The notes under the pieces: model-generated
What the model was told of the DNA's origin: nothing
What the model saw: only the letters and a program-made list of their open reading frames with translations
Databases searched by the model: none
Origin: Singulisphaera sp. GP187
GTDB taxonomy: Bacteria; Planctomycetota; GCA-002687715
Assembly: GCA_945907755.1 (NCBI GenBank)
Contig: CAMDTN010000014.1
Span: 1 to 58,888, forward strand
Direction: 5' to 3'
Length of the DNA stretch: 58,888 bases
Shown: piece after piece, positions 42,600-56,210 of the stretch
How the letters are laid out: each line of letters opens with the position of its first letter
How positions within the stretch are numbered: the stretch's first letter is position 1
Made by a program: the position numbers and the translations under genes

Positions 42600-43876
42600 G
42601 CGGGCCCCGCAGCTTGATTCGACGCCATCCGCTCGGGCAATTGCAAATCGCCGCGCACAGGTTGCGCCCGCATGGCGCGGCGAAAGTGTGGCTGCGCCAT
42701 CAGTTTCACAAAGCGCAGCCATAGGCGGTCCAGATGGAACGCCGCAGTGCGCGGCACCAAATATTGCGCGTCGTCGGGGTTCACGATCAAAGACACTTCA
42801 ATGTTGGGGGCCACGCCGATGGGAATGCCAGCCCTGCGGCACGCGCGGTACATATGTCGCATCACCAGCAGCATGTCTTCGTAGCGCGGCGAGGGATAGT
42901 GCTCCATGTCAGAGCCCACAACTGGCCTAAAGATGCACACCGTTGGGAACGCGCCCACGCCAGTGATGTAATCGATGGCCTTGAGCGTGGCTTCGATGGG
43001 CTCGATGCCAGCGATGATCTCACCGCTGCAAGCGCCCTTAGGCATGCGCGCCTGGCAGTACTCCATCGCTCTGAAGAAGGCGCCTTGCCCTACGGTTTCG
43101 GCTTTGCCGGGGAGTAGTTCCGCAAACACTTCGGGAGTGTGAAATTCGTAACAGAACGAAAAGTGGTCGGCACCCAGATCGCGCAGCCAGTCGTACTGCC
43201 ACAGTCCATCGTCCCTAGCGGGCGGCACGGCTTGCACGCCGATCAGCGCGCCCACCCGCTCTTTCACCGCTTTCACATAGGGCGCAATCTGCTGCAACCC
43301 GCGCCCATTCTGATAGCCCGTGTTGAAGTGCACGAAGGTGACGCCGGACTCCTCCTTGGCGCGCAGCGCTATGGCCACCACATCATCGACGGACTTCTCC
43401 GCCACTTCGTTGACGCCGACATTAAAGCCGGTGGTGCAAAAGCGGCAGTTCTTCGCGGGCTCGCGGTACCAGTACATGCACGAGTTGGAAACATAGATGC
43501 CCAAGTAGGTGCCCTGCAAAACGCCCACTTCGCGCATGCGCGTTCCTGCCGGTGTGATTCCTTCGTACCAATCCGGTTCTACAGGCAGGCGCACTGGGTA
43601 AACCTCGCCGTTGCGAGCATCGCTCACTTTGTAATTGCCTCCCAGCTTCGACAGCAGGTAGGGCGAAGAGCGCACAAAATCCTCCTCCACGGGCACATTC
43701 ACCCACAGATCTTTCAGGTCTCCAGGGATGATCAGTTCCAGCCCAGAACCGAGCCCCGCGCGGGTGCGTGCAACGGGCCGACCGTCCGCGGCAATGCAGC
43801 AGGAAACATCCATGCGCACTCCGTGGCAGAAGAGGTCGATCTCAAGTTCGCAGGGGTTCCTGCGGTGTTCAATCAT
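42596..43876 (-). CDS. Radical SAM protein with CX10CX2C cluster spacing
   Basis: 426 residues from ATG 43876; GTG 43957 upstream is possible. The cluster region reads Cys133, Cys144, Cys147 (SCMYWYREPAKNCRFC), so the spacing is CX10CX2C, not the usual CX3CX2C. After it a TIM-barrel-like core follows (FVHFNTGYQNGRG, GVQAVPP, GADHFSFCYEF, EIIAGIEPIEATL). The N-terminal ~100 residues are extra. A SAM-dependent radical reaction is likely; substrate unknown. It diverges from the S41 protease gene across 106 bases and is coupled to the small gene downstream. Confidence 0.8.
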   Translation of the reverse strand: MIEHRRNPCELEIDLFCHGVRMDVSCCIAADGRPVARTRAGLGSGLELIIPGDLKDLWVNVPVEEDFVRSSPYLLSKLGGNYKVSDARNGEVYPVRLPVEPDWYEGITPAGTRMREVGVLQGTYLGIYVSNSCMYWYREPAKNCRFCTTGFNVGVNEVAEKSVDDVVAIALRAKEESGVTFVHFNTGYQNGRGLQQIAPYVKAVKERVGALIGVQAVPPARDDGLWQYDWLRDLGADHFSFCYEFHTPEVFAELLPGKAETVGQGAFFRAMEYCQARMPKGACSGEIIAGIEPIEATLKAIDYITGVGAFPTVCIFRPVVGSDMEHYPSPRYEDMLLVMRHMYRACRRAGIPIGVAPNIEVSLIVNPDDAQYLVPRTAAFHLDRLWLRFVKLMAQPHFRRAMRAQPVRGDLQLPERMASNQAAGPA

Positions 43877-43982
43877 GGTGAAACCGTATCCACTGGCGCA
43901 GAAACGCTCAACGCAGCAGCCATCCCGAGTGGCCCAGCGGCTATCATTAGTGCCCACGAGCCCAGCTCACGGAAAGGTCTTC

Positions 43983-46403
43983 ATGCCCTTTGTCTTCGTT
44001 GCACTTCTGGTGATCTCCGCCGCATCCTTGCCCGCGCAGGACCGGCCCCAAACCCCCGACCCTACTGCTCTTGTGGCAAAACTCGCAACCTGCGCACCAG
44101 ACCAATGCTGGCGCGTGGCCAACGAGCTCGTGGATCTGGGCGCAGTCGCGACGCCTGCCCTGAAGACAGGGCTGGCCGCTGCGCAGCCAAGCACTGTGCG
44201 CTACGGCACGGCACGGGCATTGTGGCAACTCGAGAACGCAGCAGAGGCGAGCGCCACCTTGTCTGAACTGATTCGCACCGACGGCGCTAGCGCCATCGCA
44301 CTCCTAGCCGCAGACTTCGCCGCAGATGAAGCCGTCGAAGCCTGCGCCACCGCCATCGCAGATCGCCTCACCCGCTCGACCGGCGTCGAGCGCGCTCGCC
44401 TTGCGCGCGATTTGTACGGTGCGTCGAAGCAGCACCGCGATGTTGCGCGCCGCACTCTGCGCGCGCTGCGCAATGACGCCGACCGCGAAACGGTGGAAGC
44501 CGCCGCACTCGCGTTGGCCGAAATCGGCGATGTCGATGCCGCGCGTCCGGTGTTGGAAGCGCTGAAGGACGACCCCGGATATCGCGGGCGCCTCGCGCGC
44601 TTGCATCTGTTCACAGAACAACTACGCGACCTGCTCGAACAAGCGGGAGCTAATGGCTCGGGGCCCAAGCAATCCGACCTGCTGGATGAAGTGAAGGCCA
44701 TGGTGCGCGAACTGCACCAAGACGGCGACAAGTGGAACGACCGCGAAATGATGGAAGCCGCGGCGGGCGGGCTGCTGAGTGCAATGGACCCACACTCTGC
44801 CTATCTGCCCGTCGATGATCTCGAAGATTGGGAGTTCGACTTGAACCCCACCTACGGCGGCATCGGTGCCTATGTGAATCTGGACAACGATAAGCGCATC
44901 TTTATCTCCAGCCCGATTTACAGCGGCCCCGCATACAAGCACGACCTGCGCAGTGGCGACAAGATTCTCAAAGTCGATGGCTGGGACACCATGGGCCACG
45001 AGCTCACTGAAATCACGAGCCGCTTGAAAGGCCCCTCGGGCACCAGCCTTGCGCTGCAGGTGTACCGCCGCGGTTGGACCAAGCCCCGCGACTTCGTGCT
45101 CAACCGCGCGCAGATCCGCATCCCAACGGTGAACTGCGATTTGCTGCCCGGTGGCTTGGGCTATGTGCGCGTGACGACTTTCGGCACCACCACCACCAGC
45201 GAACTGGAAACAGCGTTGCGCGAACTGGAACAGCGTGGCATGAAGGCGCTGATCTTGGACTTGCGCAACAACTCGGGTGGCTATCTCAAGGCCGCGCAGG
45301 ACATGGCAGGCAAGTTCCTCACCGGCAAACAAGAAGTGTGCTCGTGGGAAGGGCGCAACACGCGCCTCGCCCCCAAGCGGCACCTGTATTCCACCGAACA
45401 AGAGCATGTGCGCGACGTGCCCTTAGTGCTGTTGGTGAACCGCTACAGCGCCTCAGCATCAGAAATCGTGTCGGGTGCATTGCAAGACCACAAGCGCGCC
45501 ACACTCATTGGCGAACGCACCTTCGGCAAGGGTTCTGTGCAGCGCTTCTTCCCACTGCAAACTTTCCCATCTGAAGGATTCACCGACGAAGCCCGCACCA
45601 ACGGATTTCACGATGAAGGCGAGCCCTTCGAGGACACCAACGCCAGTGGTTCGTGGGAATCTGGCGAGCCCTTCACTGACCGCGGACAGCGCAACGGAGA
45701 GTGGGACCGCGGCGAGCCCTTCAGCGACGCCAATGCCAACGCGATGCGCGACGAGAGCGAAACATTCACTGACCAGAACGGTGACGGCAAGTGGCAAGGC
45801 CCCGAGGTGTTTGTCGATGCCAACGACAACAAGAAATACGACCGCGGCCCCGAACTGAAGATGACCATTGCGCGCTACTTCCTGCCGTCAGGCCGCAGCA
45901 TTCACACCGAACGCGACAAGAAGGGCAAAGTTCTGCAAAAGGGCGGTGTGCTGCCTGATGAATGCATCGCACTGCGCCTGTACGAAGGTTGGAAGGAAGA
46001 GGAGTTCACTCGCATCCTCGAAACCAAGAAGCTCGAAGAGTATGTCGACCGCTTGGTGAAGGCCGATCCTGCAACCGTGCAACAGTTGGCTCAAGGCGAC
46101 GCGATGAGCACTGAGAAATACCCCGACTTCGAGAAACTGCGCGAGGAATTGCAGACACCGCTGAAGGCCGACGATCTACGCCGCCTGCTACGCGCCCAGA
46201 TGCGTCGTGCTGCGGCGGATTTGCGCGGCCGCGAATTCATCGCGGATTTCCAAGAAGATCGGCAACTGCAGCGCGCTGTGCACACAGCGCTCATGCGCAT
46301 TGGTTTGAGTGTGGCTGGCGTCGAGAACTACGCGTTCTTGAAAGACAACATCCCGCAGCCTCTGGACCCCAGCAAGGAAGAAGGCGGCGACAGCGACATC
46401 TGA
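43983..46403 (+). CDS. S41 C-terminal-processing-type protease with EF-hand-like insert
   Basis: 806 residues from ATG 43983 with AAAGG just upstream and a clear signal peptide (FVFVALLVISAASLPAQ). Residues ~30-225 form HEAT-like helical repeats (WQLENAAEASATL, ALAEIGDVDAARPVLEAL). A tail-specific protease core follows: PDZ domain (about 285-365, GGIGAYVNLDNDKRIF, KILKVDGWDT), a LILDLRNNSGGYL strand, catalytic Ser491 in SASASE and Lys516 in TFGKGSVQ, a normal 25-residue gap. Between GKGSVQ and the usual next strand (MTIARYFLPSGRSI) is an insert of ~95 acidic residues with repeated calcium-loop motifs. It is the only gene on the plus strand between 14520 and the tRNA. Confidence 0.93.
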   Translation: MPFVFVALLVISAASLPAQDRPQTPDPTALVAKLATCAPDQCWRVANELVDLGAVATPALKTGLAAAQPSTVRYGTARALWQLENAAEASATLSELIRTDGASAIALLAADFAADEAVEACATAIADRLTRSTGVERARLARDLYGASKQHRDVARRTLRALRNDADRETVEAAALALAEIGDVDAARPVLEALKDDPGYRGRLARLHLFTEQLRDLLEQAGANGSGPKQSDLLDEVKAMVRELHQDGDKWNDREMMEAAAGGLLSAMDPHSAYLPVDDLEDWEFDLNPTYGGIGAYVNLDNDKRIFISSPIYSGPAYKHDLRSGDKILKVDGWDTMGHELTEITSRLKGPSGTSLALQVYRRGWTKPRDFVLNRAQIRIPTVNCDLLPGGLGYVRVTTFGTTTTSELETALRELEQRGMKALILDLRNNSGGYLKAAQDMAGKFLTGKQEVCSWEGRNTRLAPKRHLYSTEQEHVRDVPLVLLVNRYSASASEIVSGALQDHKRATLIGERTFGKGSVQRFFPLQTFPSEGFTDEARTNGFHDEGEPFEDTNASGSWESGEPFTDRGQRNGEWDRGEPFSDANANAMRDESETFTDQNGDGKWQGPEVFVDANDNKKYDRGPELKMTIARYFLPSGRSIHTERDKKGKVLQKGGVLPDECIALRLYEGWKEEEFTRILETKKLEEYVDRLVKADPATVQQLAQGDAMSTEKYPDFEKLREELQTPLKADDLRRLLRAQMRRAAADLRGREFIADFQEDRQLQRAVHTALMRIGLSVAGVENYAFLKDNIPQPLDPSKEEGGDSDI
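45585..45854 (+). repeat. Six EF-hand-like acidic repeats in the S41 catalytic domain
   Basis: Residues 535-624 contain six units of about 13-16 residues of the form GEPFxDxNxNGxWDxGE. Clearest loops are DTNASGSWESGE (551-562), DANANAMRDESE (582-593), DQNGDGKWQGPE (597-608) and DANDNKKYDRGPE (612-624), each with Asp/Asn at positions 1, 3 and 5 and Glu at 12 like calcium-binding EF-hand loops. Metal binding is inferred from the pattern. Confidence 0.75.
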
Positions 46404-46411
46404 CGCGCGCA

Positions 46412-46789
46412 TCAGGCGCGATAGTTGGTTTCAAGCGCCTCGCGGAAATCGTAGTGCCCACAGAAATCTTGTTTACTGTCCGTGGGCTGCTTCGACAGAA
46501 TGTTGGCTTCGATGAGTTCGAAAACAATCTCGCCGAAATCGTCCGTACGCTTCAGGCCTTGTTGTTCGAACACCGTGCGTGCGAGATAGCCAAAGCGGTC
46601 TAAAGCCAGTTCCTTGATGCCGTCCAACAGTTGCTGCCCTGTGACATGCCCTCTGCGCCCTTCGGTGGCGTGCTTGTGCACCGTGTAGGTGACCGCCGCC
46701 AAGGTGAACAAATAGGCTTCGGGGCGGTAGCGCCCTGACACGGCCGCAAGGGCGCGGATTTTCTCAAGTGATTCTGCTGCGTCGCTCAT
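46412..46789 (-). CDS. Minf_1886 family protein
   Basis: 125 residues from ATG 46789, overlapping the holB stop as ATGA. The sequence follows the Minf_1886 pattern found mainly in Planctomycetes and Verrucomicrobia: RYRPEAYLFTLAAV, HVTGQQLLDGIKELALDRFG, the TDDFGEIVFELIE helix and DSKQDFCGHYDFREAL near the end. No function is known. Its position after DNA replication genes is worth noting. It ends eight bases from the convergent S41 gene. Confidence 0.9.
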   Translation of the reverse strand: MSDAAESLEKIRALAAVSGRYRPEAYLFTLAAVTYTVHKHATEGRRGHVTGQQLLDGIKELALDRFGYLARTVFEQQGLKRTDDFGEIVFELIEANILSKQPTDSKQDFCGHYDFREALETNYRA

Positions 46790-47784
46790 GGCTGAGAGCG
46801 CACCTTAGCCGCCATCGCGAAGTGCGTCAGAACCTGTGGCGGCGCGACATTGGTGTCGATCAGTTGCAGCGCTTGCAACAGTTGGCCACTGCGGCGGTCT
46901 GCGCTGGTGGCATCGATGGATTCGAGGGCGAGTTCGGGAGACAACTCCACTGGCCAAGGCAGCCCCTCCAACGCACGCCGCCGCAAACGCAGTAGGAACA
47001 GTGCTGCGCGCAGCAACTGGCGCACGCGCTCGCGTGTTTCTTCAAGCTGCTTCTTGTCTTCTTCCAGCGCCGCATGCAGAGCCAGTGCTGTTGTGAAGGG
47101 TGCCGCTTCACACTGCAACAACTTTGCCGCCGCAGGTAGTTGCTCAACAAAGCCCGACTGCGCCAATTCGAGCGCGCGGCCCGGCGCGCCTTCAGCGGCC
47201 AAAGTGCAGAGCGCCGCTGTGGGCCCCGTGACCCCAGCACGGGCCAAGAACTGCAGCACGGTGGCACTGTCCACCGGCCCAAGCCGCACGCGCACACAGC
47301 GCGAAAGCAGCGTTTCCATCAGCGCGCCTTGGCCAGGGGCAGTCAGCACCAAGTGACTCCCAGCCGGCGGTTCTTCCAACAGCTTCAGCAGCGCGTTCCC
47401 CGCCTCTTCAGTCAAGCGATCGGCATCGACCACCAACCCCACGCGGCGTGAGGCCTCCAGTGGCTTCATGCCGAATTCGCTGCGCAGCGCGCGCACGCTG
47501 TCGATGCCAAGCTGCCGCTTAGCTCCTTCGCGCTCCACCAGAACCAAGTCGGGATGCGCGCCTTGCCGCAAGCGGCGCACGCCTTGCTCCGCAGCATCCA
47601 CCAATCCTTGCGCGTCGCCGAACAGCAACGCTTCAGCAAAGGCCAATGCAAGCGTGCGGCGGCCGCAACCCACCGGTCCAGTGATCAGAATCCCGTTGGG
47701 CACCCGCCCGCGCAGCAACATGGAACGCAGCAGCGCGCAGCCTTCGGAGTGCCCTTGCACTCGCTCTAACGGATCGGTGCGCAT
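46786..47784 (-). CDS. holB: DNA polymerase III delta' subunit
   Basis: 332 residues. Clamp-loader fold: VQGHSEGCALLRSMLLRGRVPNG opens, GPVGCGRRTLA stands in place of Walker A (Arg-Arg instead of Gly-Lys), VVDADRLTEEAGNALLKLLEEPP is the Walker-B/helix region and LLSRCVRV holds the SRC motif. The usual cysteine-rich zinc module between these is missing; the segment reads GVRRLRQGAHPDLV without cysteines. Delta' is normally inactive as an ATPase but donates the arginine finger. The tmk-holB order is common in bacteria. Three-base gap to tmk. Confidence 0.9.
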   Translation of the reverse strand: MRTDPLERVQGHSEGCALLRSMLLRGRVPNGILITGPVGCGRRTLALAFAEALLFGDAQGLVDAAEQGVRRLRQGAHPDLVLVEREGAKRQLGIDSVRALRSEFGMKPLEASRRVGLVVDADRLTEEAGNALLKLLEEPPAGSHLVLTAPGQGALMETLLSRCVRVRLGPVDSATVLQFLARAGVTGPTAALCTLAAEGAPGRALELAQSGFVEQLPAAAKLLQCEAAPFTTALALHAALEEDKKQLEETRERVRQLLRAALFLLRLRRRALEGLPWPVELSPELALESIDATSADRRSGQLLQALQLIDTNVAPPQVLTHFAMAAKVRSQP

Positions 47785-47787
47785 GGG

Positions 47788-48384
47788 CTAACCCAGCGCC
47801 TGCACGGCAGCAGCCGCAAGCGCTTCTGGCGCGGCACTGGCATCGAGAATGCGGAAGCGCGCCGGATCTTTCGCTGCTTCGCTGAGGAACCCTGCGCGCA
47901 CCACACGCAAGAAGGCGACGCCCTTGGCCTCCATGCGATCGCCGACGCGTTGGATGCGCGCTAATGCGACTTGCGGATCGAGGTCGAACAGCAGCACCAA
48001 GTCCGGTTGCAGCCCCTGCGTCGCGGCCACATTCATGGCGCGCAAGGCCTCAACATCCGCACCACCCGCGTAGCCTTGGTAAGCAAGTGTGGAGTACCAC
48101 CAGCGATCCACGAGCACCGCTTCGCCGCGCGCCAGCGCAGGACGAATGACAGTGCGCACCAACTCGCAGCGTGCTGCGGTGAACAAGCAGGCTTCCGTCC
48201 ACGCGCTGAGAGCACCGCTGGCAGGGTCGAGCAGCACCGCTCGCAACTTTTCGCCTAAGACAGTGCCGCCGGGTTCGCGCAAGCACAGCACAGGCTTCCC
48301 GCGGGCTTCCAACGCACGCCGCAATTCCGGGATGCAGCCGCTTTTCCCAGCTCCATCCACGCCTTCCAAGACCACCAGTGCCAT
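47788..48384 (-). CDS. tmk: Thymidylate kinase
   Basis: 198 residues from ATG 48384, one base after the dnaA-like stop. P-loop GVDGAGKSG near the N-terminus, LREPGGTVLGEKLRAVLL, the DRWWYSTLAYQG substrate-binding motif, and DPQVALARIQRVGDRMEAKG in the lid region. It phosphorylates dTMP to dTDP. It feeds both DNA synthesis and dTDP-sugar synthesis. Confidence 0.94.
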   Translation of the reverse strand: MALVVLEGVDGAGKSGCIPELRRALEARGKPVLCLREPGGTVLGEKLRAVLLDPASGALSAWTEACLFTAARCELVRTVIRPALARGEAVLVDRWWYSTLAYQGYAGGADVEALRAMNVAATQGLQPDLVLLFDLDPQVALARIQRVGDRMEAKGVAFLRVVRAGFLSEAAKDPARFRILDASAAPEALAAAAVQALG

Positions 48385-48385
48385 A

Positions 48386-49708
48386 TCAGACCTTGCGCTG
48401 AAAGAGGCGTCGATCGACTTCGCGCGAAAGCCGCCCCAGCACCGGAGTGCTGCTGTAAACCGCTGCTTCGCGCTGCACCATTTGATGGATCGCAGTGTGG
48501 CTGCGGTTTCCGAGCCGTACGCCAATCTGCTTCAGAGTCAGGCCAGCCATTTCTTTCAGCAAGAACGCTGCTGCGCCGCGCGGAGCGGTCAGCGAGCGCG
48601 TCTTCTTGCGAGAGAAAATCGCTTCGTGCTGCACACCGAAGTGCTCTGACACCACCGCCAAGATGCAGGCGATACGACGCTCCCGCGGATCGGTAGGCCC
48701 CTGAATATCGGCCAAGTGTTTGTCGAGGAAAGCTGCCGTGACTGGCTCGCCGCTAAGGCCAGCAAAGCCGTACACCTTCTTCACCAACAATTCGAGTTCG
48801 CGGAGCGACACATCAGTGCGCGCTGCAAGCAAGTCCACCACTTCGCCAGGGATTCGGGACGGCCCGAAAGCCAAACGCGAACGCAGGATGGCCGCCATTT
48901 CGAGGCGAGACGCAGGCGCGATTCCCACAGCCATGCCCGATGACAGCACCGAAGCGAACACGCCTTCCAGCGCATGCAAACCCGAGAGCGGCAAACGCGA
49001 GAAGGCCAACACCTTGCCGCGACGCGCCAAGAGCTCTTTGAACTGCAAGGCCAACTCGCGCTGCGTCGCAAGCTTTCCGACCAGTTCCTGCACATCGTCC
49101 AAGATGATGCAGTCCGCTCGCAGGAATCGCGCGCGAAAATCGTTCTGATGCCGTGAGCGCTGCGCCCAAGCAAAATCGCGCACGACATTCGCCGCTTGCA
49201 GCGACAGCACCCGGCCTTGCGTGTTCATGGCTGCTGCTGCTGCGTCGGCCAAGTGCGTCTTGCCGCTCGACGCAGGCCCGCAAAGCAACAACGGGTTCAA
49301 AACCGGCTGCCGTCCTTCGATGAAATGGCGCAACGCCTTGACAGCCGCCGCAGCGCCCGCGGTGGGCGCGAAGTCCTCGAAGTTGCGGCCTTGCCGCGGC
49401 GCGCGGGTGCGCCGTTCTGCTTCTACGGCTGTGGCATCAAGGCTGATTCCAGCCGCCGCTGCATGCACAAGCACTTCGATTTTCACGACAGCGCCGAACT
49501 CTGCCGCGACCAAGCGCTCTATCTGGCTGCAAAAGTTGGTGCTGATCCAATCGCGCGTGGTGCTGTTCGGCACTGCAAGCTGCAGCGTGCCGCGCTTCAT
49601 CTCGACGAAGCGAGCACGCTGGAACCACAGCCGCCAAGCTGCGTCCCCAACGCTCTCGCGCATGCGCTCCAACACACGCGCACACCGATTATGAATCACC
49701 GCATCCAT
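48386..49708 (-). CDS. dnaA: Divergent DnaA-type replication initiator
   Basis: 440 residues from ATG 49708, full DnaA length. Domain I (about 5-75: AWRLWFQRARF ... VPNSTTRDWISTNF), linker, AAA+ domain III with Walker A GPASSGKT (144-151), Walker B IILDDVQ (201-207), and sensor II Arg303 (SLRELE), then DNA-binding domain IV (about 345-435) with GLTLKQIGVRLGNRSHTAIH. Where normal DnaA has LEDRLRSRF this protein has LEGVFASVL (248-256), so both box-VII arginines, including the arginine finger, are valine. It is not beside dnaN or recF; neighbours are an exported peptidase and tmk. It may be the main DnaA of a divergent lineage or a paralog. Confidence 0.85.
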   Translation of the reverse strand: MDAVIHNRCARVLERMRESVGDAAWRLWFQRARFVEMKRGTLQLAVPNSTTRDWISTNFCSQIERLVAAEFGAVVKIEVLVHAAAAGISLDATAVEAERRTRAPRQGRNFEDFAPTAGAAAAVKALRHFIEGRQPVLNPLLLCGPASSGKTHLADAAAAAMNTQGRVLSLQAANVVRDFAWAQRSRHQNDFRARFLRADCIILDDVQELVGKLATQRELALQFKELLARRGKVLAFSRLPLSGLHALEGVFASVLSSGMAVGIAPASRLEMAAILRSRLAFGPSRIPGEVVDLLAARTDVSLRELELLVKKVYGFAGLSGEPVTAAFLDKHLADIQGPTDPRERRIACILAVVSEHFGVQHEAIFSRKKTRSLTAPRGAAAFLLKEMAGLTLKQIGVRLGNRSHTAIHQMVQREAAVYSSTPVLGRLSREVDRRLFQRKV

Positions 49709-49727
49709 GGATCGCCAACCGCCTCCG

Positions 49728-52613
49728 TCACCGGGCCCCCGCCCGAAGGCGCACATCCTTGGCGATCTTGTGCTCAGGCACAAGGGCCAGCGCTTTTTCT
49801 GCCGCGCTCAGCGCGTCAGCAGGCCTGCCCAGCGCTAGCAACGCCTCACCGAGTGCTGCTAACAAGTCCGCCTCCGCTGGTGTTGTCGGCTGGCACGCAA
49901 GCCCTACGCGGAGCGCTGCTTCTGCCTCGCCGAATCTTTTCAAGTGCGTCAACACTTGGCCGCTTTGCAAGTGCAGCGCCGAGTCCATGGGTTGAATCAA
50001 AATCTGCATTTCCAACTGGCGCAATATTTCTTTGTGATCGCTCTTGACAGCCAAGAGCTTCAGTAGTTCAGCGCGACCTTCGATGTCATCGCTGTCCACT
50101 TCCAAATGCTCGGTCAGAATTTTCTGCGCGTCGTCGCTGCGGCCCTTCGACAACAGCAGGCGCACCAATTGGCGGCGCGGGCCGTTGCGTTGCGCATTCA
50201 ATGGGAAGAACGCAATGGACGCACGCAGCGCCGTCTCGGCACCCTCGCTATCGCCCTTGTCCAGCAGCAGCTTCCCCAGCGCGGCTTGCACCTCGAAATC
50301 TTCGAGCCCTCCCGCACAAGCAGCTAACAGGGATTTCAAAGCACCTTCTTTGTCGCCAGCCTTGAGGGCAAGGCGGCCTTGCAGTCCCAAGAGCTGCGCA
50401 TCTCCTACCCCGAGCTTCGCTTCCACCTTGTCCACCGCTACACGCGCGGCCGCCATGCTCGTGCGGTCCAGCAGCGTTGCCGCCGCACTCACCAGCGTGG
50501 CCGCCGTTGCGGTGCCACTCGCTGCAGCCGCTTCTTTCAATGCGCTTTCAGACAACCTCGGCACGCGTCGCAGCTTGGCGACACGCTCACGCGCTGCCGC
50601 AGCAATGCCGCGGTCGATGTCGTCCAAACTGAGGCCCAAGATTGCTTGCGATGCTTGGGCAAAGCCTTGGTCTTCTCCCAACGCGACCAGCAAGGCGCGC
50701 ATGCGCTCCATGCCGCACTCGCGCACCAACCATTCCACAGCAATGCCCGCCTGGAAGTAGGCGAACACAACGCGGGGCGTTCCGAACGCGGCTTCGAACT
50801 GGCGCACTGGGATCAACTCCCCCGCCGCCAACGCGTCGTGCAGTTCCAAGTCCATGTGACGGTCCCATGCGGGCACCAATGCGCGCTCTTCCCAAGTGCT
50901 CAAGCCTTCGGTGAGCCAGCGCGGCACGCGGCCGCGCGACAAGCCCAACGCGAAACTGTGCGCCAATTCGTGATGCAGCGTGCGCGCCCACGAGCCACTG
51001 CCTGGGGGCATCGCGCTGGGTGACAGCATGGTCAGCAGCGGCCCGAAGCAGAACCCCAAGAAGCCTTGGCGCGGCAACGAGAAAGTGCGCGCAGTGAGAT
51101 CGCCAGTGGACAGCAGGACTTCCACGCGCAAACGCCCTTGGGCGTCTAAGCCCGCAGGGGTGAACGCATATTTGTCGCGCAGCAGACACCACGACTTTTC
51201 CGCGAACGCTGCCACGGTTGGTTCCAGTGCCGCACGTTCGCGTTTGGCGAGACGCAGCGTCAGGTGTTCCGTAGGCACATCGTCGTAGAAGCGACCGACA
51301 ACGCGCACGAACTCTGCCATGTTTTTGCGGCGCACATGCGAGAATTTTTCAGCAGCCGCAGCGGCCTTCAGTGCAGTGGCCGCCACATCATCGGCACCCA
51401 AGTACAAGGCATAGCGCGCCACAGCATCGTGCGCTTGACCATTCGATGGCTCGAGCTGCGCGGCCGCTTGAGCAAACACCAAACTCTCGCTCCAGCGCCG
51501 ACGATTGGACAACACTGCGGCCACCATCAAGCGTGGCAGGGCCTTGCCGCCCGCCGCACCACTTGCGCTGCTGCGCTCCGCTTGAGTCAGAGCCGCGGCA
51601 CAAGCAGCAGCGTCGCCATCCAGCAGCATCTGCGCAGCGGCAAGCCCCAATGCGCCCATGTTGCGCGGATGGTGCGGCAAAAACGTGTCCAGCATCTGCT
51701 TGGCCGCACTCGTGTTGGCGTCGCCCAACAACACCTCGACGCGCGCCAAGATGGCATCCGTTTGATGCGCATTCACACCAACTGCTCGTGCGAACGCCGC
51801 CGCAGACTCCGCAGGCTTTTGCCACGATTCGTAAGCACGGCCCAGCAACCCGTGCGCGTCGGCCAAGTCTGCCCGGAGTTGCAGCGTCGCCTTGCCTTCT
51901 TCCACAGCATCGCCTTCAAGATGGAATTGGTCCAAGTACAGGTGCGCCAAAGCAAGTGTGGGGCGCCAGCCATCCAATTGCGGCACTTCTGGGTGCGTGC
52001 GCTGAGCCTCCGCCACAGCCTTCTGCGCTTCCACCAACACTGTCTCGGCCTCCTTCGCACCACCGAATTGCACATAGACACTGGACAGAGCAATCAAGTC
52101 GCGCGGATGGCGCACCACCACGCGCCGCGATTCCTCCAGCACGCGGTCGAGCACTGCGTCAGCTTCTGGCGCATGTCCTGCGTCGCGCTGCAACGCGGCA
52201 ACCAACACGGCACTGGCAAAATCGAATGCGGGTTCTGCTGTTGGTGCCGGCACTCGTGGTCGCGAGAAAGGCTCGACCAGCGCCGCTGCTTCGCTGCCGC
52301 GTCCCAGTTCGCGCAAATATGCTGCGCGAGCGCAGGCCGCCGCAGCACTCTGCGGCGCGCCCTGCACCCAAGCGGCGGAATACTCTGCGCACAATTCCGT
52401 AGCTCCAGTGTTTGTCGCAGCTTGCAGCGCGAGTTCCAACCAGTCCGCGCTGAGAGGGCCTTTCGCCGCTTCAGCTTTCACCGCTTGCAGCACCGCTGCA
52501 TCGGCACCGCGCGCAAGCATGCGCTGCAATTCCACCGCATCCGCCTGCCCCCACAGCGGCATCACGCTGCTGAGCAGAAACAAGCCGCCAATCAGATGTG
52601 CGAGCGTAGGCAT
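49728..52613 (-). CDS. Exported TPR protein with peptidase MA-like domain
   Basis: 961 residues from ATG 52613, with a signal peptide (HLIGGLFLLSSVMPLWGQ). N-terminal TPR-like helices (about 30-430) precede a metallopeptidase domain: zinc motif HELAH (His548-His552) and third ligand Glu569 in WLTEGLSTWEE, the gluzincin arrangement of peptidase MA. A second TPR array (about 690-960) follows. The zinc residues are complete. It probably acts in the periplasm. Substrate unknown. It stands between WYL regulators and dnaA in the same close-packed chain (28- and 19-base gaps). Confidence 0.88.
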   Translation of the reverse strand: MPTLAHLIGGLFLLSSVMPLWGQADAVELQRMLARGADAAVLQAVKAEAAKGPLSADWLELALQAATNTGATELCAEYSAAWVQGAPQSAAAACARAAYLRELGRGSEAAALVEPFSRPRVPAPTAEPAFDFASAVLVAALQRDAGHAPEADAVLDRVLEESRRVVVRHPRDLIALSSVYVQFGGAKEAETVLVEAQKAVAEAQRTHPEVPQLDGWRPTLALAHLYLDQFHLEGDAVEEGKATLQLRADLADAHGLLGRAYESWQKPAESAAAFARAVGVNAHQTDAILARVEVLLGDANTSAAKQMLDTFLPHHPRNMGALGLAAAQMLLDGDAAACAAALTQAERSSASGAAGGKALPRLMVAAVLSNRRRWSESLVFAQAAAQLEPSNGQAHDAVARYALYLGADDVAATALKAAAAAEKFSHVRRKNMAEFVRVVGRFYDDVPTEHLTLRLAKRERAALEPTVAAFAEKSWCLLRDKYAFTPAGLDAQGRLRVEVLLSTGDLTARTFSLPRQGFLGFCFGPLLTMLSPSAMPPGSGSWARTLHHELAHSFALGLSRGRVPRWLTEGLSTWEERALVPAWDRHMDLELHDALAAGELIPVRQFEAAFGTPRVVFAYFQAGIAVEWLVRECGMERMRALLVALGEDQGFAQASQAILGLSLDDIDRGIAAAARERVAKLRRVPRLSESALKEAAAASGTATAATLVSAAATLLDRTSMAAARVAVDKVEAKLGVGDAQLLGLQGRLALKAGDKEGALKSLLAACAGGLEDFEVQAALGKLLLDKGDSEGAETALRASIAFFPLNAQRNGPRRQLVRLLLSKGRSDDAQKILTEHLEVDSDDIEGRAELLKLLAVKSDHKEILRQLEMQILIQPMDSALHLQSGQVLTHLKRFGEAEAALRVGLACQPTTPAEADLLAALGEALLALGRPADALSAAEKALALVPEHKIAKDVRLRAGAR

Positions 52614-52641
52614 GATGCTGAAGGCTCCTGCGCGCTGCGGA

Positions 52642-53619
52642 TCAACTGTGACTTGCGGCCACCGCGCGCAAAGTGCGCTGGACGCATTGCCGCAAAGAAA
52701 GCGGCGCCACCACTTCAAATTCCACTCCAAATGACAACAGCACGCGAGCCAGCGCTTCCTCACTTGCTATTTGCGGATGCCACAAGCAAGCGCCGCCGGC
52801 GTCGTCATCAACACTACCGACCTCTGCGCTTTCGCGAATCCAACGGGCCGCTGTTCCGCTGAAACGCACGGTGGCCCGCGGCCGATCGCTTGGCCCAAGA
52901 AGTGGCTTGGTGCTCCAATCTTGCAGACACACAGCAGCCGGGATTTCAAAATGGCGCTTCAGGGCTATCAGCTTGCGCACGCGATCTAATCGGAAGGTGC
53001 GCGGCTCGGCTTCGCCTTCGACCAGCGCCACGAGGTACCAGTGGCCTTCGCGGCGCACACCGCCGTAAGGTTGCACGCACCAAGTGCGCACGCTGTCATC
53101 CCGTCCAGCGACATACTCGATCTCGATGACGCTGCGCTCGAAGGCCGCCGCTGCAACGCGTTGCAGAATGCCGGCGATCTGTTCGCTGCCCTCGTCAGAC
53201 GCAAGGGTGCGTTTGCTGAGAGCTTTGAACAACGCGCGCTGCTTCGGCCCCATCGCCTCTTCGACTTTGCGCAGCACGCTCTGCACACTGCTCGCAGGCC
53301 TCGCGCCCGCCGGTGCGGTGCTCTCGCAGGCGATCTTCAGTGCCAACGCTTCCAGCGCGTCCAAACTGACCGGGCGACGGAAATGATCCGCGAAAGCCAA
53401 GTGCACACGGTCGCCTTCCAGCGAAAAACAAATGTAATCGTGCGGGAAGTAGGGCGGCACGCCGCACATGAGCAGCGTGGTGCTGAGGTCTTCCAGCACT
53501 TGAGCGCGCGGGCTTTGGGCGCGCCTTGAAAGCTCGTCGATTGTGATGCCTTGATGCTGGCGCACGATGGGCACCAGATTCAGGCAACGGTTCAAAGCAG
53601 TGATGGTGTTGTCGGCCAT
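52642..53619 (-). CDS. WYL-domain transcription factor, PafC-like
   Basis: 325 residues from ATG 53619, eight bases after the other WYL gene. N-terminal winged helix-turn-helix (LVPIVRQHQGITIDELSRRA ... VLEDLSTTLLMCGVPPY), then a WYL domain with HWYLVALVEGEAEPRTFRLDRV and a C-terminal WCX extension. PafB-PafC pairs activate DNA-damage genes in actinobacteria; the tandem arrangement here resembles them, but the target is unknown. The WYL motif itself is intact. Confidence 0.85.
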   Translation of the reverse strand: MADNTITALNRCLNLVPIVRQHQGITIDELSRRAQSPRAQVLEDLSTTLLMCGVPPYFPHDYICFSLEGDRVHLAFADHFRRPVSLDALEALALKIACESTAPAGARPASSVQSVLRKVEEAMGPKQRALFKALSKRTLASDEGSEQIAGILQRVAAAAFERSVIEIEYVAGRDDSVRTWCVQPYGGVRREGHWYLVALVEGEAEPRTFRLDRVRKLIALKRHFEIPAAVCLQDWSTKPLLGPSDRPRATVRFSGTAARWIRESAEVGSVDDDAGGACLWHPQIASEEALARVLLSFGVEFEVVAPLSLRQCVQRTLRAVAASHS

Positions 53620-53627
53620 GGCATTCT

Positions 53628-54677
53628 TCAGCCTGCGGATGCAGCGCGCGAGGTCTGTTCGCTTGGCACTTCCTTCGTGGCGTGACAGCGCAAGAGTTTT
53701 TCTGTGGCTGTCTTCACTGCCTGACGCAGCGACGCGGGCGAGTCCACCACGACATCGCCGCCTCGTGCCAGCAACCAAGGCACCAACTGTTCGGGGCTGC
53801 GCACACTCAACTCGTAACGCACACCGTTGGTATCGCAGCCCACGCGTGTAGCGCGCGGCGGCAGGATCGGCGTGGCCTTACCTTCAGGCACGCGCAGAAC
53901 CACCGTCACAGGCTTGCGTTCGCCAATCTGCCAACCCTCGTTGTGCAAGTGCTGCGCAAGGCTGAAGGCTGCTGGGACATCGAAGTCGGCGGCATCTCGT
54001 TGGCTGCATGTTTGCACGCCGCCTTGAATGCGGCCGAGTTTGAATGTGCGGACTTCCTTCTTGCCCTTGCAGAGGCCCACGACATACCAGGCGCCTCGCA
54101 CCATGCCGACTCCGTAGGGCTCGATCTCTCGCAGTGCCGTGGGGCTGCTGAGCGACGAATAAACAAAACGCACGCGTCGGCTGCCCGCCACCGCATTCGC
54201 GAGCACAGCTAAGACTTCTTGGCCGGCAGGGTCGCCGCTTTGGGCCCGCAGGGTGGTGAGTGCACCCAGCTCTGCACCAAGGTCGCCGTCGGGCAAATCC
54301 ACCGAGAGCTTGCGCAGCGCGCTCTTCAGCGCTTCGCCGAGCAAGCCACCGCCAGTGGCCACTTCACCTACCCGCGCAGCCATGCTCAGCACCGCAGCAT
54401 CCTCTTGGGTGAACTCCATCTCGCGTTGCAGCAAGGCATCCTTGCGCACGATGTACCCGCACTGGCCTTGGCGATCGTCGACATATTCGGCGTGAATCGA
54501 AAGGAGACGCAACTCGCGTTTGTCGCGCTCGAAACGCTTCTCGATGGCGTCTGCGGAAGCCGCATCGTCGTAGCCGATGACATGCCCACGGATGGCACTG
54601 AACGGAATCGGGGCCTTGGATGCCAACAAAAACGACACCAAGTTCAGCAACCGTTCCAGTTTGCCTACATCCGCCAT
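53628..54677 (-). CDS. WYL-domain transcription factor, PafB-like
   Basis: 349 residues from ATG 54677. N-terminal helix-turn-helix (KLERLLNLVSFLL ... AIEKRFERDKRELRLL), WYL domain (EIEPYGVGMVRGAWYVVGL, with Tyr-Val in place of Tyr-Leu, then FKLGRI) and a WCX domain. The C-terminal 20 residues are Ser/Ala-rich and probably disordered. It is the first gene of the seven-gene chain leading to Minf_1886 and has a promoter-like sequence about 85 bases upstream. Confidence 0.87.
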   Translation of the reverse strand: MADVGKLERLLNLVSFLLASKAPIPFSAIRGHVIGYDDAASADAIEKRFERDKRELRLLSIHAEYVDDRQGQCGYIVRKDALLQREMEFTQEDAAVLSMAARVGEVATGGGLLGEALKSALRKLSVDLPDGDLGAELGALTTLRAQSGDPAGQEVLAVLANAVAGSRRVRFVYSSLSSPTALREIEPYGVGMVRGAWYVVGLCKGKKEVRTFKLGRIQGGVQTCSQRDAADFDVPAAFSLAQHLHNEGWQIGERKPVTVVLRVPEGKATPILPPRATRVGCDTNGVRYELSVRSPEQLVPWLLARGGDVVVDSPASLRQAVKTATEKLLRCHATKEVPSEQTSRAASAG

Positions 54678-54763
54678 CCGCCACCCCTCAAAGACTTGCT
54701 TCCCCTGTCGAAGCGAAGACCGCTCCGAGTGCTGCCTGCGCCCACCGCCAATGCAGCGCTGCG

Positions 54764-54793
54764 ATGCTATCCACGCCAAGGCCTGAGGGTCAA
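54764..54793 (-). promoter_or_regulatory. Candidate promoter of the WYL-dnaA-holB operon
   Basis: TTGACC (54793-54788) and TAGCAT (54769-54764) on the minus strand with 18-base spacing, about 87 bases before the first WYL gene. The gap to the MATE stop (54678-54836) is 159 bases and otherwise shows only a seven-T run near 54802. Confidence 0.38.
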
Positions 54794-54836: not shown

Positions 54837-56210
54837 TCAGCGCTTGCGGGTTTTCCATTTGCCGCGTTGCCAGAGCACGGAGTACAGCAAAGCTGCAACG
54901 GCATGCACTCCTCCAATGCACCACCACACCGCCGCTGGGCCGCGCCCACCTGTTGTGGGTGCGATGGTCATGGCCAACGGCAACAGCAGCACGAGGTAGA
55001 GCCCGATGTCCAAGACCATGGCGGTGCGCGTGCTGCCAGCGCCGTTCAACCCGCGCGCCAACACCACGCCCACGCCCAACCCGGGCATGAATGGCAACAG
55101 CACGCTCAAGTAATTGCGCGCGGCTGCAAGGCTCTCCGGGCGCAATTCGGGCATCAACCCCAACAGCACAGGCTCGTGCCACCACCACAGCGCGGCGGCA
55201 GCGAGGCCCATGCAAATCGCTGCGGCGGCCGCCAACACCCACACGCCGCGCCCCGCGCGCTGCGCTTCACCGGCGCCGAGGTTTTGTGCCACGAACGGCG
55301 TTGCTGCTGCGCCAAATCCAAGACCCATGAACACCGCCAGCATTTCGAGGCGCACACAAAGGCCGACTCCATCCATGAAGGCGGATGCAGAGCCTTGGGT
55401 GAGCTCGCGAGCGATGCGCAACATCAAGAACACCGACACCACCCGAGCGGCCAGTTGCAGCGAAGTTGGCAGGCCTTGCGCCAACAAACTGCGCAACGAA
55501 GGCACACCTCCGATGAGCTGCCGCCCCCGCAGCCGCAACCCGTTCACTCCGCGCAGCAACAGCAAGACCCCCAACACGGCGAACAGCAACTGCGCCAACA
55601 CGGTGCCGAGAGCTGCGCCAGCCACTCCCATACGCGGCAGACCTGCGAGTCCGTAGATCAGCCCCGCTGCGAAAACCAAATTGGCGATGTTGGCACCAAC
55701 GAGAATTGCCAGCGGCCAGCGCCCAGACCCCGCCGCACGCAAGATGGCGGTGGTCTGCAAGATGAAGATCATTCCGGCCATGCCGTAGCCCATGATGGCG
55801 AGGTAAGCGACGCCGTCCTCCACCACGGCTGCGTTGTCGATGGCGAAAAATTCAACCAGCGGTCGCGCCCCCAATCCGAAAGCGCAGGCGCACAGCAGCG
55901 AGGCGAACCCCGCAAGGCGCAACGATTCCTCTGCGATGCGCTGCGCTTCTTCGTGGCGCCCGGCACCCAACGCGCGCGACAATCTTTCCACGGTGGCAGT
56001 ACTGAGTCCGTCGAACAGCAAGAATCCCAGCGGCAAAATCAGCCCGCCGATGGTGACGCTCGCCACGGCGCCTGGCCCGAGGCGCGCGACCATCACCATG
56101 TCCACCAAATTGAACAGCCCATGGGCCAACATGCCGCAAGCCAGCGGCGTGCCTAGTAAGAGCGTCTGCCGCACCAGCGGTCCGGATGTCAGCGCGCTGT
56201 GCGTTTTCAC
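54837..56210 (-). CDS. MATE-family membrane transporter
   Basis: 457 residues with about twelve hydrophobic spans. Starts at GTG 56210, overlapping the reductase stop as GTGA. The MATE pattern is visible in the first half (LACGMLAHGLFNLVDMVMVARLG split by a turn, VTIGGLILPLG) and repeated in the second (GLCVRLEMLAVFMGLGFGAAATPFVAQNLGA). MATE pumps export cationic drugs with Na+ or H+, but they belong to the same MOP superfamily as Wzx sugar flippases. Tight coupling to GDP-sugar genes makes a glycan role worth considering. Confidence 0.88.
   Translation of the reverse strand: MKTHSALTSGPLVRQTLLLGTPLACGMLAHGLFNLVDMVMVARLGPGAVASVTIGGLILPLGFLLFDGLSTATVERLSRALGAGRHEEAQRIAEESLRLAGFASLLCACAFGLGARPLVEFFAIDNAAVVEDGVAYLAIMGYGMAGMIFILQTTAILRAAGSGRWPLAILVGANIANLVFAAGLIYGLAGLPRMGVAGAALGTVLAQLLFAVLGVLLLLRGVNGLRLRGRQLIGGVPSLRSLLAQGLPTSLQLAARVVSVFLMLRIARELTQGSASAFMDGVGLCVRLEMLAVFMGLGFGAAATPFVAQNLGAGEAQRAGRGVWVLAAAAAICMGLAAAALWWWHEPVLLGLMPELRPESLAAARNYLSVLLPFMPGLGVGVVLARGLNGAGSTRTAMVLDIGLYLVLLLPLAMTIAPTTGGRGPAAVWWCIGGVHAVAALLYSVLWQRGKWKTRKR

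Follow-up and report, generated by a model that had tools for sequence, protein, structure and literature searches.

Why does the planctomycete Singulisphaera sp. GP187 have a gene of the DnaA family between a peptidase gene and the genes for thymidylate kinase (tmk) and the clamp-loader delta' subunit (holB), behind two putative regulators? And is its product the initiator of replication? We analysed a stretch of 58,888 nucleotides from this genome, which we will call the window. Seven consecutive genes of the window are on the minus strand (Table 1). An earlier note on this DNA had described them as an operon that might place replication initiation, dTTP supply, and replisome loading under one regulator, possibly one that senses DNA damage or the envelope. 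When recomputed, their positions and spacings (8, 28, 19, 1, 3, and -4 bases) matched the note exactly. Matches to domain profiles also agreed with the families that it had named: a WYL pair, a peptidase, a DnaA-family protein, tmk, holB, and Minf_1886.

Table 1. Features of the cluster and its neighbours, by position in the window.
Feature	Position	Strand	Evidence or remarks
MATE-family transporter gene	54837..56210	-	MatE 3e-38; upstream neighbour, 159-bp gap to WYL1
Promoter-like site TTGACC-18-TAGCAT	54764..54793	-	same place in two congeners
WYL1, PafB-like WYL/WCX regulator, 349 aa, ATG at 54677	53628..54677	-	WYL + WCX domains
WYL2, PafC-like WYL/WCX regulator	52642..53619	-	HTH_PafC 1e-21
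TPR + Peptidase_MA_2 (gluzincin, HHELAH) protein	49728..52613	-	domain matches; N-terminal signal-like segment
dnaA2, divergent DnaA paralogue, 440 aa	48386..49708	-	DnaA_N, Bac_DnaA, Bac_DnaA_C
tmk, dTMP kinase	47788..48384	-	TIGR00041 1e-44, Thymidylate_kin
holB, clamp-loader delta' subunit	46786..47784	-	PF13177 (DNA_pol3_delta2) 1e-31
Minf_1886 family (TIGR04138) protein	46412..46789	-	1e-36, above cut-off
ctpA-like S41/PDZ protease gene	43728..46403	+	ORF; type named from own sequence; convergent with Minf_1886

A conserved gene cluster of Planctomycetota

We compared the window's proteins to the corresponding regions of relatives. Allowing for contig ends, and for family f2, which has lost the tmk neighbour, we recovered the full order, MATE–WYL1–WYL2–peptidase–dnaA2–tmk–holB–Minf_1886 with a convergent ctpA, in the genus, the family, and the order. 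(The MATE gene is at the same position in loci L035, L037, L038, L039, L041, and L056 and, among the regions around PafC-type genes described below, in L156, L157, and L158.) The close spacings also recur in two congeneric genomes, with 8/99/19/1/3/34 in G001 and 7/10/18/2/1/39 in G002.

A second search was centred on Minf_1886 and hence did not presuppose a DnaA. Minf_1886 is present in 102 of the 119 genomes of the phylum, and we read about 80 of the regions around it. The core peptidase–dnaA–tmk–holB–Minf_1886 recurs in distant families, and some other families have tmk–holB–Minf_1886 without dnaA. Across the phylum, a DnaA gene is linked to tmk and holB in 15 families. The peptidase gene is directly upstream of dnaA2 in most of these loci, and ctpA is a constant downstream boundary, on the opposite strand in most relatives.

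Regions around genes for PafC-type proteins extend this picture. The long order recurs in the distant family f15, with insertions of a few kb, and in family f29, without dnaA2. Because it recurs in f15 and f29, the linkage of the WYL pair must be older than the window's order. The pair is upstream and on the same strand in families f1, f2, f3, f15, and f29; many Planctomycetota have the tmk–holB–Minf_1886 core with no linked WYL pair, and in others the pair is elsewhere.

The cluster is an ancient, vertically kept gene cluster of the Planctomycetota. We had considered that the arrangement might be a local accident, but we rejected this. The earlier note had staked its operon on the order being kept in close relatives, and it is kept far beyond them.

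Several variants of the locus are worth recording. At L114:7290-8063 (family f32), a methyltransferase-like ORF on the opposite strand occupies the slot of dnaA2, between the peptidase gene and tmk. Locus L084 (genome G070, from another family) has tmk–holB–PSP1–metG–Minf_1886 and then a protein kinase gene. Genomes of family f29 have two copies of Minf_1886 (L156, which is G037:C27, and L125, which is G037:C7), one of them within the long cluster. And at L161 (G030:C173, family f22), an unlinked WYL1–WYL2 pair is followed directly by a peptidase-like ORF, which echoes the window's order.

The earlier note had also placed a promoter-like sequence in front of the cluster. Such a site (TTGACC-N18-TAGCAT) is present, but a single such match is at chance level (1 found vs. 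1.1 expected). TTGACC is invariant, at the same place, in three of three genomes (the window's and two congeneric ones), and the extended string GGTTGACC...TAGCAT occurs only once in the genome. The leader between the promoter and WYL1 (54677-54764 in the window) contains GCGGTCTTCG, which is invariant across the three genomes and is a possible regulatory element.

As for the other products, tmk is the sole match in a search of the whole genome. HolB matches TIGR00678 (2e-43) yet is under the curated cut-off, and the Minf_1886 protein scores 125.4 bits against TIGR04138 (cut-off 60). To judge from its sequence, the TPR/Peptidase_MA_2 protein is probably exported.

DnaA2 is a second DnaA

The genome encodes two DnaA proteins. 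The window's copy is by far the weaker match (1e-17 vs. 9e-62), and the strong copy, which we will call DnaA1, is encoded elsewhere, at dnaA–dnaN–gyrB, the usual locus of the initiator. Against the family model for chromosomal DnaA (TIGR00362), the window's protein scores 228 bits, below the curated cut-off of 343.9; against Hda (TIGR03420), it scores 52 bits, with a cut-off of 195. We will call it, and its counterparts beside tmk and holB, DnaA2.

In an unrooted tree with 53 rows, the 29 tmk/holB-linked DnaA2 proteins are split from the 24 other DnaA proteins by one branch, whose support is 99/94 and which appears in 100% of 200 bootstrap trees. Two further DnaA matches, at L078 and L127, were judged to be AAA+ proteins of another, clamp-loader-like kind, and neither the tree nor any count includes them. 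Six DnaA2 rows are on long end branches, and fast evolution could help to group the DnaA2 rows; that the DnaA2 genes share a place in the cluster speaks independently against such an artefact. DnaA2 is best read, from this tree, as one old and separate lineage of paralogues.

We compared residues in the 29 DnaA2 proteins to those in 27 other DnaA proteins of the phylum (all taken as DnaA1). By Pfam, domains I, III, and IV are all present in the window's DnaA2. Its structure model is good in domains I and IV only, and there the predicted folds resemble 4tps (domain I, TM 0.85-0.88) and 1j1v (domain IV, TM 0.80). The window's DnaA2 keeps the Walker A and B motifs (GPASSGKTH and ILDDVQ), and the Walker A lysine is present in 27/29 DnaA2 as against 27/27 DnaA1.

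Other residues of domain III have changed. The arginine of AID-1 (R227 in E. coli) is kept in 3 of the 29 DnaA2 proteins vs. all 27 DnaA1, and the arginine finger (R285 in E. coli) in 10 of 29 vs. 26 of 27; none of the nine DnaA2 proteins from the window's order has the finger. In the window's DnaA2, these positions are leucine and valine, respectively. E. coli DnaA requires Arg285 and Arg227 if its domain III is to interact functionally (PMC5742627). Because the 10 DnaA2 proteins that keep the finger are from other families, loss of the finger does not define the lineage. The sensor-2 arginine is found in 5/29 DnaA2 vs. 27/27 DnaA1, although the window's DnaA2 itself keeps a sensor-2-like arginine; its sensor-1 aspartate is lost. 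The arginine of the B motif is replaced in all nine DnaA2 proteins of the window's order, but this position is also variable in DnaA1 (15/27).

The helix-turn-helix has been altered as well. R399, which in E. coli reads the minor groove of the DnaA box (PMC5742627), is kept in 3/29 DnaA2 (24/29 have lysine) vs. 26/27 DnaA1. D433 is kept in none of the 29 (25 have serine) vs. 19 of 27, and Q408 is changed to other residues in 28 of the 29 DnaA2. At R399, Q408, and D433, the window's DnaA2 has K, G, and S. In contrast, R407 is present in every protein of both groups (29/29 and 27/27).

The earlier note had called this protein a DnaA-type initiator. We reject that identification because the canonical dnaA–dnaN–gyrB locus is elsewhere in the genome and because the window's copy is a paralogue without the residues that define an initiator. 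DnaA2 is very probably not the chromosomal initiator, and so control of initiation by a WYL regulator does not follow from this locus. Within the window, GC skew has no lasting change of sign that would mark an origin, and there is no excess of DnaA boxes in the window or on the contig with the canonical dnaA.

DnaA2 is under purifying selection (dN 0.18 and dS 1.2 for G000 vs. G001, with dN/dS of about 0.15 and dS near saturation), so it is not a pseudogene. Some families (f29 and f32) keep the cluster and have lost dnaA2, so dnaA2 is inessential to the other genes. A scan of genome contigs with nine DnaA2 sequences found no conserved stretch; with three sequences, it returned only two named relatives, both Planctomycetota MAGs.

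Proposed role of DnaA2

Compared to the roles of residues in E. coli DnaA, DnaA2 keeps the nucleotide site and the DNA-binding fold and has lost the residues for filament formation and for opening the origin. The losses do not reveal what function was gained. With moderate confidence, we propose that DnaA2 is a regulator that binds nucleotide and DNA and is not an initiator. Nucleotide (ATP or ADP) would be bound stably by DnaA2, with neither the usual hydrolysis driven by the arginine finger nor assembly into filaments. Since it could not form an initiator filament, it would work as a regulator. Its altered helix-turn-helix would take it to a DNA site that differs from the DnaA box. Most likely, it would either regulate its own operon, and with it dTTP supply and a clamp-loader subunit, or join DnaA1 complexes through domain I and limit them. 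How strongly the whole unit is expressed would depend on the PafBC-like pair, acting at the single promoter that precedes the unit.

We also considered that the whole unit might be a DNA-damage operon under the control of PafBC. During repair, such an operon would raise dTTP supply and clamp loading and provide a damage-specific DnaA. As the earlier note had it, both WYL regulators resemble PafB and PafC: they have WYL and WCX domains, WYL2 has HTH_PafC, and both match solved structures. The best solved relative of WYL1 is PafBC 6sj9 (3e-33), the helix-turn-helix of WYL1 being recognized only by alignment to PafB, and WYL2 matches PafC 7p5x (2e-25). PafBC senses single-stranded DNA via arginines of a loop in the WYL domain (PMC11804915). 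This loop aligns with RTFRLDR in WYL2 and with RTFKLGR in WYL1, where one arginine is a lysine. WYL2 is also the only PafC-type match in the genome, and the pair precedes the cluster, on the same strand, in five families. However, the genome encodes a LexA-type protein as well, and many Planctomycetota have the tmk–holB–Minf_1886 core with the WYL pair unlinked or elsewhere. Also, the promoter in front resembles an ordinary sigma-70 site and does not fit what we take to be the PafBC motif. Overall, we consider a damage operon unlikely, but it can be reconciled with a regulatory DnaA2.

If both ideas held, DnaA2 would represent a phylum-old class of DnaA-family regulator that binds ATP, is defective in filament formation, and has its own DNA site. 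One operon would then tie dTTP supply and a clamp-loader subunit (and Minf_1886, as a possible replisome accessory) to PafBC-type damage sensing. We consider this broader scheme unlikely.

tmk and holB are an old bacterial pair and are adjacent in many bacteria. So perhaps the cluster reflects ordinary co-location, with slow rearrangement keeping genes beside that pair, and DnaA2 is a decaying duplicate. The fast evolution of DnaA2 and its loss from some families would fit. But this explanation seems doubtful given that spacings of 1-3 bases recur in congeners, that distant families share the order, with ctpA as a constant boundary, and that DnaA2 is under purifying selection and nearly always keeps Walker A.

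Finally, DnaA2 might be dedicated to loading the helicase or to restarting replication, in a role like that of DnaC or DnaI, and might work with the product of the adjacent clamp-loader gene; but known AAA+ helicase loaders have an arginine finger, which DnaA2 lacks in the window's order, a loader would not need the strictly conserved residue of the helix-turn-helix (R407), and the general pairing of tmk with holB already explains the replisome gene next door. This is improbable, even though domain I, which contacts DnaB in E. coli (PMC5742627), is kept in most DnaA2 proteins.

Related systems and implications

DnaA2 shares with chromosomal DnaA (TIGR00362) the I-III-IV layout, the Walker motifs, and the fold of the helix-turn-helix, and differs in its sub-cut-off score, its locus, and its AID-1, arginine finger, sensor, and box-reading residues. 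Hda (TIGR03420), an AAA+ protein, is likewise a relative of DnaA but no initiator. However, Hda lacks domains I and IV. Its AAA+ domain comes with a clamp-binding motif and with an arginine finger; the finger is missing from DnaA2 of the window's order. Like mycobacterial PafBC, which acts in the DNA damage response, the WYL pair is encoded by tandem PafB- and PafC-like genes with HTH_PafC and WYL-WCX domains, but there is no gene for a Pup ligase or a proteasome among the genes that we read beside it. As in the chromosomal tmk–holB pair of other bacteria, holB directly follows tmk, but here dnaA2 precedes the two genes and Minf_1886 comes after them; in other Planctomycetota, PSP1 and metG separate holB from Minf_1886.

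Other genomes of the PVC group, from Chlamydiales and Ca. Kuenenia, have two or three dnaA genes, and the excerpts of those reports describe neither a link to tmk–holB nor a loss of residues (PMC2878342, PMC7709395). Extra copies of dnaA are already known from Chlamydiales and from an anammox member of the Planctomycetes, and tmk–holB is an old pair. In the open-licence literature that we searched, we found no account of the DnaA2 cluster, its residue pattern, or its breadth, and no paper on two dnaA genes in Planctomycetes in such a context.

Control of replication has hardly been studied in Planctomycetota. A second lineage of DnaA whose defects can be predicted, located beside tmk–holB in many families, is a testable lead to how DnaA-type proteins become regulators. 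It also calls for caution in annotation: dnaA2 scores as DnaA and could be mistaken for a marker of the origin.

Through its constant neighbourhood, the functionally uncharacterized Minf_1886 family is linked to genes of the replisome. The earlier note's view that this family is restricted to Planctomycetes and Verrucomicrobia agrees with its published description (PMC2474590). Its structure model, built from three sequences, is all-helical and weak (pLDDT 67), and a fold search with this low-confidence model found no match.

We also noticed that the convergent ctpA-like protein has an insert of acidic repeats, rich in D, N, and G, that resemble calcium-binding loops. Translation of this ORF probably begins farther downstream than its first listed start.
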